Shown: positions 3,118-22,937 of the stretch, in pieces
Layout of the letters: each line of letters begins with the position of its first letter
Position numbering within the stretch: the first letter of the stretch is position 1
Notes under the pieces: generated by a model
Seen by the model: the letters and a program-made list of their open reading frames with translations, nothing else
Databases searched by the model: none
What the model was told of the DNA's origin: nothing
From: Thioalkalivibrio sulfidiphilus HL-EbGr7
GTDB lineage: Bacteria; Pseudomonadota; Gammaproteobacteria; Ectothiorhodospirales; Ectothiorhodospiraceae
Direction of reading: 5' to 3'
Length of the DNA: 64,000 nt
Assembly: GCF_000021985.1 (NCBI RefSeq)
Contig: NC_011901.1
Location: forward strand, 3,110,501-3,174,500
Made by a program: the position numbers and the translations under genes

Positions 3118-3147
3118 ATTTTGAATTTTGAATCTTGAATTTTGAAT
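3032..3147. repeat. Palindromic heptad array, 7 + 7 copies of ATTCAAR / YTTGAAT
   Basis: Seven contiguous heptads (ATTCAAG x3, then ATTCAAA x4) occupy 3032-3080. After an 18-nt centre, seven inverse heptads (TTTGAAT or CTTGAAT) occupy 3099-3147. Copy number is equal in the two arms, but the G/A choice at the seventh base is not mirrored, so several paired units differ by one base. The left arm is read through by the exonuclease gene. The right arm ends three bases before the CobW start codon, leaving no obvious Shine-Dalgarno sequence. A 4 + 4 version of the same family lies at 22852-22937. Confidence 0.95.
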
Positions 3148-3150
3148 CCA

Positions 3151-3870
3151 ATGCCCATCCCCACCCACCTGATCACCGGCTTCCTCGGCGTCGGCAAGAC
3201 CACCGCCATCCGCCATCTGCTGGCCCATCGTCCGGCGGGCGAACGCTGGGCGGTGCTGGTCAACGAGTTCGGCCAGGTGGGCGTGGACGAACAACTGATG
3301 GAAGGCGAGGACGTGGCCATCCGCCAGGTGCCGGGCGGGTGTCTCTGCTGCGTCAGCAGCCAGGCCTTCACCGTGGGGCTCAACCGGCTCATCCGGGAGG
3401 AGCGCCCCGAACGCATCCTCATCGAACCCACCGGCCTGGGCCACCCGGCTCGGGTGATCGAGACCCTCACCGGCGAGTTCTACCGGCAGGTGCTGGACCT
3501 GGGCGCCGTGATCACCCTCATGGACGCCCGCCACCTGGCCTCGCCCCGGCACCGGGAGCACCCCACCTGGCAGGACCAGATCCGCCTGGCGGACGTGCTG
3601 GTGGCCAACAAGGCGGATCTGTACAGCGATGCAGAGCGGGAGGTCTTCCTGGACTTCGCCCGTACCCTGGATCCACCCAAGACCCGCACCGCCCTGGTCA
3701 GCCAGGGCACCCTGGACCCCGCCTGGCTGGACCTGCCAGCCGATCCACCGCGATCCGTTGAGGACACCCATGATCTACTTGGGGACATCCATCATCCTGA
3801 CAGTTCACTTGGGGACACCCATCATCCCCATCATCCTGGGCACCATGCGCATGAGGACGCGATCCGTTGA
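3151..3870 (+). CDS. CobW/P47K-type GTPase metallochaperone, N-terminal part of a gene broken by a 109-bp duplication
   Basis: G3E-family GTPase that delivers Zn or another metal to client proteins. Visible: Walker A GFLGVGKTT near the start, the metal-binding GGCLCC motif (about residue 65), and NKAD for guanine recognition. The ATG at 3151 is preferred over an in-frame TTG at 3142 that lies in a repeat arm. The frame runs into a His-rich linker with GDTHHP-like repeats and stops at 3870, before the CobW C-terminal domain. That domain follows in another frame at 3871-4303. Neighbours (DUF1007, NicO) fit a Zn/Ni/Co homeostasis cluster. A truncated GTPase domain may still be made. Confidence 0.85.
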   Translation: MPIPTHLITGFLGVGKTTAIRHLLAHRPAGERWAVLVNEFGQVGVDEQLMEGEDVAIRQVPGGCLCCVSSQAFTVGLNRLIREERPERILIEPTGLGHPARVIETLTGEFYRQVLDLGAVITLMDARHLASPRHREHPTWQDQIRLADVLVANKADLYSDAEREVFLDFARTLDPPKTRTALVSQGTLDPAWLDLPADPPRSVEDTHDLLGDIHHPDSSLGDTHHPHHPGHHAHEDAIR

Positions 3871-3979
3871 GGACACCCATGATCCACTTGGGGACATCCA
3901 TCATCCTGACAGTTCACTTGGGGACACCCATCATCCTCTTGGGGACACCCATCATCCTGGGCACCATGCGCATGAGGAC
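3752..3979 (+). repeat. 109-bp tandem duplication within the CobW His-rich linker
   Basis: A block starting GATCCGTTGAGGACACC begins at 3752 and again at 3861. The offset of 109 bp is 3 x 36 + 1, so the second copy is read in another frame. Copy 2 carries 12 extra bases (four codons) because an internal 21-nt unit encoding LGDTHHP is present once more. The joined copies read His-rich peptide in both frames. Removal of one 109-bp unit would join the GTPase domain to its C-terminal domain in frame. Confidence 0.93.
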
Positions 3980-4303
3980 AGCCATGATTCACCTGCGGGC
4001 ACGCAGTCCGACTGGTTCCTGGCGACCCAGCACGGCGACGGCTACCACGGCATCAGCTGGCTGCTCGACCCCGCCGTTCGGCTGGCGCACGAAGACCTGA
4101 TCGAACTGCTGTACGGGGATGCATGGGACCGGACCAAGGGCGTGCTGCACACCGACCGGGGCTGGTTCGCCATCAACCGGGTCTCCGGCGAGGGCGGCCT
4201 GGAAGCCCGCCCACCCGGGCAGGAGACCCGCCTGGAGATCATTCACCACGCGCCGCTGGATACTGAACGGCTCGATGCCAGGCTCCGTTCCCTGCGGGTC
4301 TGA
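3871..4303 (+). pseudogene. Out-of-frame C-terminal domain of the CobW GTPase
   Basis: This frame, entered from the second copy of the linker repeat, encodes more His-rich linker and then about 95 residues ending in RLRSLRV that match a CobW C-terminal domain in size and position. It has no credible start of its own. Without the duplication the full protein would be about 347 residues, normal for the family. Expression needs either loss of one repeat unit or ribosomal frameshifting in the linker. A misassembly in the repeat is also possible. Confidence 0.8.
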
Positions 4304-4400
4304 ACCGCCCCACGATGAACTTTGCCCAGCCTGCACTTACCAAGCAGTCAGGTTATGTGATAACAAGGCAGCCCACGATCAGCGACCCGTTTCTACCCGA

Positions 4401-5072
4401 ATGCAGCCATTCGCCCTACAGCCCCTGCGCCGCCTGCTCACAGGCCTCGTCCTGTTCCTCACCGTCCTGCTGAGCGCTCAGGCCCACGCCCATCCCCACG
4501 CCTGGATCGACCTGCGGGTGGCGGTGGTGTTCGACGAGACAGGGCGCATCACCGCCCTGCGCCAGGTCTGGCGCATCGACCCCTTCTACAGCCTGGTGCT
4601 GCTGGAGGAGATGGCCACCGATGCCCGGGGCAACACACCGGAGGAAAAGCTCGCGGACATCGGCAACCGCATGATCGAGAACCTCACCCCCTACCAGTAC
4701 TTCACCGAGGTGAGCCACGGCGGGCAGCGCCTGCAGGGTTTCACCGTCCGGGATCATGGCCTGGTCAACGCCGCCGGGCGCCTGGAACTGGGCTTTACCC
4801 TGGTGCTGCCCGAGCCGGTGAACCCGGAGACCGGGCCGCTCAGCTACGCGGTGTTCGATCCCAGCTACTACATCGAGATCCTCCACGACCCGGACGCCAC
4901 CGTGGCCCTGGAGGGCGCCTCTGAGCGTTGCGGCCTGCAGATCAGACAGCCCCGGCCCGATCCCGTGATCGTCGCCCGGGCCGCGGCCCTGGACGCCAAC
5001 CAGACCGGCGACCCGGACCTGGGGCGCCACTTCACCGAACACGGGGAGGTGCGATGCGACCCGGCGCCCTGA
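4401..5072 (+). CDS. DUF1007-family periplasmic protein, partner of a NicO transporter
   Basis: Secreted protein of 223 residues with a clear signal peptide (LVLFLTVLLSAQAHAH) followed by HPHAWIDL, typical of DUF1007. Members usually sit next to Ni/Co or Zn transport genes and are thought to bind or hand over metal in the periplasm; this role is inferred from context. The ATG at 4401 starts just before the signal peptide, although the frame is open further upstream. The stop overlaps the start of the NicO gene by 19 bases, so the two are translationally coupled. Confidence 0.87.
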   Translation: MQPFALQPLRRLLTGLVLFLTVLLSAQAHAHPHAWIDLRVAVVFDETGRITALRQVWRIDPFYSLVLLEEMATDARGNTPEEKLADIGNRMIENLTPYQYFTEVSHGGQRLQGFTVRDHGLVNAAGRLELGFTLVLPEPVNPETGPLSYAVFDPSYYIEILHDPDATVALEGASERCGLQIRQPRPDPVIVARAAALDANQTGDPDLGRHFTEHGEVRCDPAP

Positions 5073-6082
5073 TACCGGCCGTACTGATCGCGCTGCTGCT
5101 GTGGGCACCGCTGCTCGGGGCCTCGCCCCTGTCCGGCGGCAGCACGACGACCCATGCCACGGCCAGCGAGCCGGAGGCCCTGAACGCCTGGGAGCGAGCC
5201 ACTCTGTGGGTGCTCAACACCCAGCGGGACCTCCACCGGCAACTGGCGCGGGGCATGGAGCGCATCCAGAACGCCCCCACCGCCGCCAATACCTTCGCCC
5301 TGGTGCTGGTGGGCTTCCTGTACGGCATCTTCCACGCCGCCGGGCCCGGCCACGGCAAGGCGGTGATCACCACCTACCTGCTCACCCATCGTCAGCACAT
5401 GACGCGCGGCCTGGTGCTCTCCTGGGCCTCATCCCTGCTGCAGGGACTGACCGCCATCGCCCTGGTGGTGGGCGTGGTGGTGATCGCCGAACGTCTGACC
5501 CGTGAGGCCCTGGGCCATGTACGCACCCTGGAGATGGTCAGTTTCGCGCTGGTGGCGGCGGTGGGTGCCTGGCTGGTGTTTCGCGCCCTGCGCGGCCTGT
5601 GGCGCCTGCGCCCGGTGGCGCAGCATGCCCATGATCATGATCACGCGCACGGACACGACCATCATCACGATCATGAACACGGCTGCGGCTGCGGCCACGC
5701 CCACCACGTCACCCCCGAGCAGGCGGCCAGGAGCGACAGCCTGGGTGCCATGATCGGCACCGTGGTGGCCGTGGGCATCCGCCCCTGCACCGGCGCGATC
5801 CTGGTGCTGGCCGTGGCCAACATGCTGGGTCTGTGGATGGCGGGCATCGCCGCCGTGCTGGCCATGTCCGTGGGCACCGCCATCACCGTGTCGGTGCTGG
5901 CGATCCTCGCCGTGCAGGCCCGCCACTGGGCCGGGCGCATCGCCGGCAGCCAGGGCGGCAGCCTGGCCTGGGCCCGGGCCGGACAGGGGGTGGCACTGGC
6001 CGGTGGGCTGCTGATCTTCGCCCTGGGCGTAAGCCTGCTGGGTGCCGGCTTCGACGCCCCCGCCCACCCGCTGGGGCTGTGA
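5054..6082 (+). CDS. NicO-family (RcnA-like) nickel/cobalt membrane transporter
   Basis: Inner-membrane metal exporter of about 342 residues. It has an N-terminal signal/anchor, the motif GIFHAAGPGHGKAV, a cytoplasmic loop very rich in His with a short GCGCGH segment, and the second signature GIRPCTGAILVL. The ATG at 5054 is preceded by GGGAGGT and lies inside the end of the DUF1007 gene. With the adjacent CobW GTPase this forms a small metal-handling operon. Whether the physiological metal is Ni, Co or Zn cannot be told from sequence. Confidence 0.88.
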   Translation: MRPGALIPAVLIALLLWAPLLGASPLSGGSTTTHATASEPEALNAWERATLWVLNTQRDLHRQLARGMERIQNAPTAANTFALVLVGFLYGIFHAAGPGHGKAVITTYLLTHRQHMTRGLVLSWASSLLQGLTAIALVVGVVVIAERLTREALGHVRTLEMVSFALVAAVGAWLVFRALRGLWRLRPVAQHAHDHDHAHGHDHHHDHEHGCGCGHAHHVTPEQAARSDSLGAMIGTVVAVGIRPCTGAILVLAVANMLGLWMAGIAAVLAMSVGTAITVSVLAILAVQARHWAGRIAGSQGGSLAWARAGQGVALAGGLLIFALGVSLLGAGFDAPAHPLGL

Positions 6083-22851: not shown

Positions 22852-22937
22852 GTTCAAGATTCAACATTCAAAATTCAAAGGAAAGACAAGGACCTGCCAC
22901 CTCACCACCTTTGAATCTTGAATCTTGAATCTTGAAT
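22852..22937. repeat. Palindromic heptad array, 4 + 4 copies of the ATTCAAR family
   Basis: Four heptads (GTTCAAG, ATTCAAC, ATTCAAA, ATTCAAA) at 22852-22879 face four inverse heptads (TTTGAAT, then CTTGAAT x3) at 22910-22937, with a 30-nt centre. Same family as 3032-3147 but with four units per arm instead of seven. It sits between ftsX and the rpoH promoter. Confidence 0.93.

Follow-up and report, generated by a model that had tools for sequence, protein, structure and literature searches.

The COG0523/CobW gene of Thioalkalivibrio sulfidiphilus HL-EbGr7 is interrupted by a tandem duplication in the segment that encodes its histidine-rich linker. The reading that accounts best for the data, with a probability of about 0.7, is that a His-rich linker derived from repeats kept in frame was hit in this strain by a young, frame-breaking duplication. 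The gene lies in a window of 64,000 nucleotides, the whole stretch of DNA that was analysed, and coordinates refer to this window unless indicated otherwise. The genome is a single contig of 3,464,554 bp.

As sequenced, the open reading frame extends from ATG 3151 to position 3870 (+) and encodes 239 aa, consisting of a GTPase part and a 38-aa His-rich tail with 10 histidines. The GTPase part matches PF02492 in a profile search (E=6.1e-47) and is assigned to COG0523 by its Walker A motif, GFLGVGKT, and a CxCC motif, CLCC. The frame is closed by a TGA stop (3868-3870, +) just beyond the duplication junction. The CobW_C-like C-terminal half is located at 3995-4303 (+) in the +1 frame, stop-free until 4301-4303, and does not share a chain with the GTPase domain in HL-EbGr7 as sequenced. 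Its match to PF07683 is weak and under the cut-off (E=0.0054); it can be aligned along its whole length with the proteins of intact relatives, and neither a further stop nor a further frameshift was found in it. The genome yielded no second confident COG0523 paralogue, the remaining PF02492 matches being judged by ORF length alone and fitting other GTPase genes. Directly downstream of cobW lie a gene for a DUF1007 protein (4401-5072, +; PF06226, E=4.1e-60) and a gene for a NicO-family metal transporter with a His-rich loop (5054-6082, +; PF03824, E=3.7e-38). The transporter loop is likewise long and rich in both His and Asp (AHDHDHAHGHDHHHDHEHGCGCGHAHH).

The duplication consists of a direct repeat, 3749-3827 and 3858-3936, with 78 of 79 nucleotides identical at an offset of 109, and of a second stretch of 32 nt, 3827-3858 and 3948-3979, which matches exactly at an offset of 121. 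The initial annotation had placed it at 3752-3979, which is essentially correct, inside the His-rich linker of a CobW GTPase, which is borne out by the profile match and the reading frames. An end-to-end alignment of copy 1 (109 nt, 3749-3857, +) with copy 2 (121 nt, 3858-3978, +) shows one substitution and one indel, 12 nt that are present only in copy 2. At such identity a chance origin is no serious option. Copy 1 is read by the upstream ORF in the frame that contains DTHHP, as RSVEDTHDLLGDIHHPDSSLGDTHHPHHPGHHAHE, followed by TGA 3868 right on entry into copy 2; the DTHHP frame of copy 2 is read by the downstream frame only. The initial annotation had assumed that His-rich sequence is kept in both frames across the repeat. 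This is wrong, as the upstream frame is His-rich through copy 1 alone and the downstream frame through copy 2 alone, and the other readings of the copies run ...LGTPII... or contain stops.

Both unit lengths, 109 and 121 nt, equal 1 modulo 3. Removal of the 109-nt unit in silico yields a single ORF of 347 aa and removal of the 121-nt unit one of 343 aa, whereas arrays of 2, 3 or 4 copies always yield 239 aa, because the first junction places the TGA in the upstream frame. Copy number sets the frame, as in a contingency locus, with one unit in frame and two or more out of frame. The expectation that one copy is in frame and two copies are not was confirmed by these constructs. The arithmetic on which it had been based (109 = 3n + 1) holds when one copy is compared with two, but it fails for three and four. 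Since the same TGA is met at any copy number above one, there is no period-of-three cycling with copy number, and a three-state count with 1, 4 and 7 copies in frame was ruled out by the common end point of 2, 3 and 4 copies.

The linker sequence is a member of a repeat family that flanks a transposase gene, which the initial annotation had overlooked. The repeat core is ACTTKGGGACACCCATCATC, listed for the eight-copy array as GRGGACANCCATNATY, and the eight cores of the HL-EbGr7 linker (3760-3988, +) start at 3760, 3781, 3811, 3869, 3890, 3920, 3941 and 3974. A loose 19-mer of the core gave 48 matches in the HL-EbGr7 genome versus 2 for a reversed control. With the stricter pattern ACTTKGGGACACCCATNATY, which was used for the family counts in 40 genomes, 18 sites were found in HL-EbGr7, 35 in T. 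sulfidiphilus ALJ17 and none in the 38 other relatives, and the reversed-pattern control gave none. Among these 40 genomes, linkers with the repeat family occur in HL-EbGr7 and ALJ17 only. The strict sites of HL-EbGr7 are confined to cobW and to a second locus, L061, where a Y1_Tnp gene has one cluster on each side, the two being inverted relative to each other; in the coordinates of that locus, the clusters lie at 3126-3344 (+) and 5234-5494 (-) and the transposase gene at 4158-5204 (-). The product is an IS200-like (RAYT-like) transposase, whose PF01797 score of 23.6 bits is barely above the cut-off of 23. In ALJ17 a 98%-identical transposase adjoins its own repeat array. In two further congeners, relatives of the transposase or fragments of them have ACTTYGGGGACACCCA or a one-mismatch form within ~150 bp, so that repeat and transposase appear to travel together more widely.

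The Y1 transposase gene with inverted flanking repeats resembles the RAYT/REP units described in PMC2817692. The REP reported there for HL-EbGr7, GTAGGTCGGCCTTCAGGCCGAC, belongs to a different family from the linker repeat. The consensus of the linker repeat, ACTTTGGGACACCCATCATCC, is without a GTAG-type head tetranucleotide, and the folding of two repeat units is no more stable than that of shuffled sequences (z=0.51 and 0.32), giving no sign of a stable hairpin or palindrome. Classification as a classical GTAG REP was ruled out on these two grounds, and for the same reason any movement driven by the transposase is putative. Linker copies have TTGGGG where the dispersed copies have TTTGGG, and the linker array may have expanded by local amplification following one single event. 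Like intragenic REPs, of which REP dimers in a Thioalkalivibrio uvrA gene are an example (PMC3733652), and like the Rickettsia RPEs, the sequence is a short dispersed repeat, linked to an IS200-like transposase, which lies inside an ORF and adds amino acids. Unlike intragenic REPs, it has neither a GTAG nor a CGTC tag, is not palindromic, and forms a tandem array in a linker that is His-rich in the orthologues too. Elsewhere in the genome, at L064 (~2520-2950; G000:C1:1805016-1805455), a related IS200-like transposase is present in broken copies, which lie beside a repeat variant of their own, AAGAGGACACCCATCATT; this suggests several repeat-transposase lineages in HL-EbGr7.

A scan of genome contigs for further close relatives of the strain gave ALJ17 alone, which carries the closest orthologue. 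Its GTPase part is 95% identical, the gene is intact (355 aa, linker SVEDTHDPLGDTHHPGHDDLLGDTHHPEYAHGDLLGDTHHPEYAHGDSHDSPAGT), and the exonuclease, cobW, DUF1007 and NicO genes follow one another as they do in HL-EbGr7. The region equivalent to CobW_C is part of the one chain in ALJ17, where the full-length query gave no PF07683 match. The ALJ17 linker array differs from that of HL-EbGr7, is wholly in frame, and is not the one-copy version of the latter. Its cores are spaced by 21, 36, 42 and 30 nt; those of HL-EbGr7 are spaced by 21, 30, 58, 21, 30, 21 and 33 nt, the 58 nt spanning the duplication junction. Spacings divisible by three make up 10 of 11 in the linkers of the two strains, the exception being that at the junction, versus 9 of 40 in arrays elsewhere (Fisher p=6e-5, a value that is only indicative, as copy 2 duplicates copy 1 and both strains share ancestry, which makes the spacings partly non-independent). 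Multiple-of-three spacings everywhere save at the junction argue for an array that stayed in frame up to the duplication, the sole frame-breaking event. The orthologues of the two further congeners (77-79% identity) have short, ordinary His-rich HDHGHG linkers from which the repeat is absent, and relatives from another genus of the family have an HDHDHDHD linker at the same place. The cobW proteins of the relatives are all single-chain.

A stepwise history is the most likely account of these observations. In the T. sulfidiphilus lineage the His-rich linker of the COG0523 gene would have been built from, or expanded by, transposase-linked repeats, and the array would have been retained in the one frame in which the repeat spells Gly-Asp-Thr-His-His-Pro, which makes it probably a metal-binding linker. 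Linker length would have varied in codon multiples, the array of ALJ17 being a putative product of such variation. The later 109/121-nt tandem duplication in HL-EbGr7 would then have broken the frame, leaving at most the 239-aa GTPase with its His-rich tail and removing the C-terminal domain from the predicted product. The two copies differ by 1 substitution per 109 aligned bases and the two strains by ~5-7% around the locus; with copies more alike than strains, the duplication seems to postdate the divergence of the two strains, provided that the copies have not been made alike by gene conversion. Their identity of 78/79 also suggests that the repeat may be unstable. If one unit were lost, by slippage or by recombination between copies so nearly identical, a protein of 343 or 347 aa would result, so that the allele is revertible in principle and the lesion plausibly reversible. 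Near-identical tandem copies are well known to lose units by deletion; for tandem repeats of ~100 bp the literature search returned no directly usable measured rate.

The locus shares with the COG0523 metal chaperones (PMC2770081) a GTPase domain with CxCC, a His-rich linker, a CobW_C-like end and adjacent metal-transport genes, and departs from them in that transposase-linked repeats form its linker, which in HL-EbGr7 is out of frame. Each element has precedent; the combination, a transposase-linked repeat both as His-rich linker and as source of breakage, is new as far as the literature was searched. It makes a compact case in which a mobile-element-linked repeat apparently supplies a protein segment, being His-rich in one frame and kept there, and in which the instability that lengthens the linker can equally disable the gene.

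Simple pseudogenisation, in which the gene was inactivated by a random duplication not long ago and is now decaying, differs from the preferred reading only in the permanence of the loss and is possible, at odds well short of even. A total of 36 pseudogenes is reported for the HL-EbGr7 genome (PMC3072093), and dN/dS is 0.62 in the C-terminal half of the gene, compared with 0.22 in the N-terminal half and ~0.11 in neighbouring genes. However, the contrast between the two halves is not significant (p=0.11), and the C-terminal half is looser in intact pairs as well (0.49 vs 0.13 and 0.29 vs 0.14), for which reason relaxed selection was dropped as proof of decay. Changes that could be polarised to the HL-EbGr7 branch are few, with 2 of 13 in the C-terminal half, which carries no second lesion. 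With the same tendency in intact pairs and p=0.11, long-term decay is neither shown nor excluded.

Adaptive phase variation, which the initial annotation had raised as a possibility, would mean high-frequency switching of the chaperone with one unit as the on state and two or more as the off state; it appears improbable. Near-identical tandem units of ~110 nt that break the frame, an in-frame one-unit form and a C-terminal half free of any other stop or frameshift would all fit it, as would the 12-nt length change that already separates the copies and marks the array as labile. A precedent exists in the phase variation of the pneumococcal capsule genes cap3A, cap8E and tts, which is attributed to tandem duplications that arise spontaneously (Waite et al. 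2001, 2003, as cited in PMC4022640); there too the gene is disrupted by a tandem duplication within its ORF and becomes intact again when one copy is lost. In the capsule genes, however, switching was observed, whereas here one state of one strain is known, from one genome with no sign of mixed states. Moreover, the array of ALJ17 is different and entirely in frame, and the same picture would be expected of any lineage in which a duplication has just occurred. The HL-EbGr7 repeat also departs from the capsule duplications in its coding role as a His-rich linker and in its association with a transposase. Slightly more doubtful still is a combined role in this haloalkaliphilic sulfur oxidiser, in which a domesticated, transposase-linked mobile repeat would serve the chaperone as its metal-binding linker and, being unstable as a tandem array, would also turn metal handling on and off. 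If reversible switching were true, duplication-based phase variation would extend from the surface genes of pathogens to metal homeostasis in an environmental chemolithotroph.

An assembly error, with only one unit in the true genome, is very unlikely because the sequence was finished from Sanger and 454 data (8.19x and 23.3x, respectively), with 518 additional finishing reads made partly for repeats and a stated error rate of less than 1 in 100,000 (PMC3072093). Tandem repeats in general are often misassembled, and contigs from pyrosequencing did enter the assembly; however, the array of ~230 nt fits within one Sanger read, and mere duplication during assembly would not account for the base and the 12-nt indel that distinguish the copies. 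Hardly credible is a split gene, in which the GTPase and its His-rich tail would form one subunit and the C-terminal domain, also His-rich and translated from a start of its own, a second: ATG 3845 and ATG 3851 of the downstream frame do lie just upstream of the stop at 3868, which a reading frame begun at either would overlap, and each product would retain one His-rich copy, but the relatives are all single-chain, separate translation was dropped as no recognisable ribosome-binding site was seen by eye upstream of 3845, and a programmed +1 frameshift was dropped as the CGT-TGA-G junction is a poor site for it, with no prfB-like context seen by eye.

A further repeat was observed just upstream of cobW. 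At 3031-3148 copies of a 7-bp repeat (TTGAATC/T) make up an inverted pair of 50 nt, which overlaps the 3' end of the exonuclease ORF, and the heptad also occurs at 22911-22937. Each arm contains ~7 heptads in HL-EbGr7 versus 4 in ALJ17; as both arms differ alike between the strains, the arm lengths have changed together. The tail of the exonuclease differs by 7 aa between HL-EbGr7 and ALJ17 (332 vs 325). All five congeners that were tested have the heptad family, with 67-307 matches in each genome; three genomes from further away gave no match.
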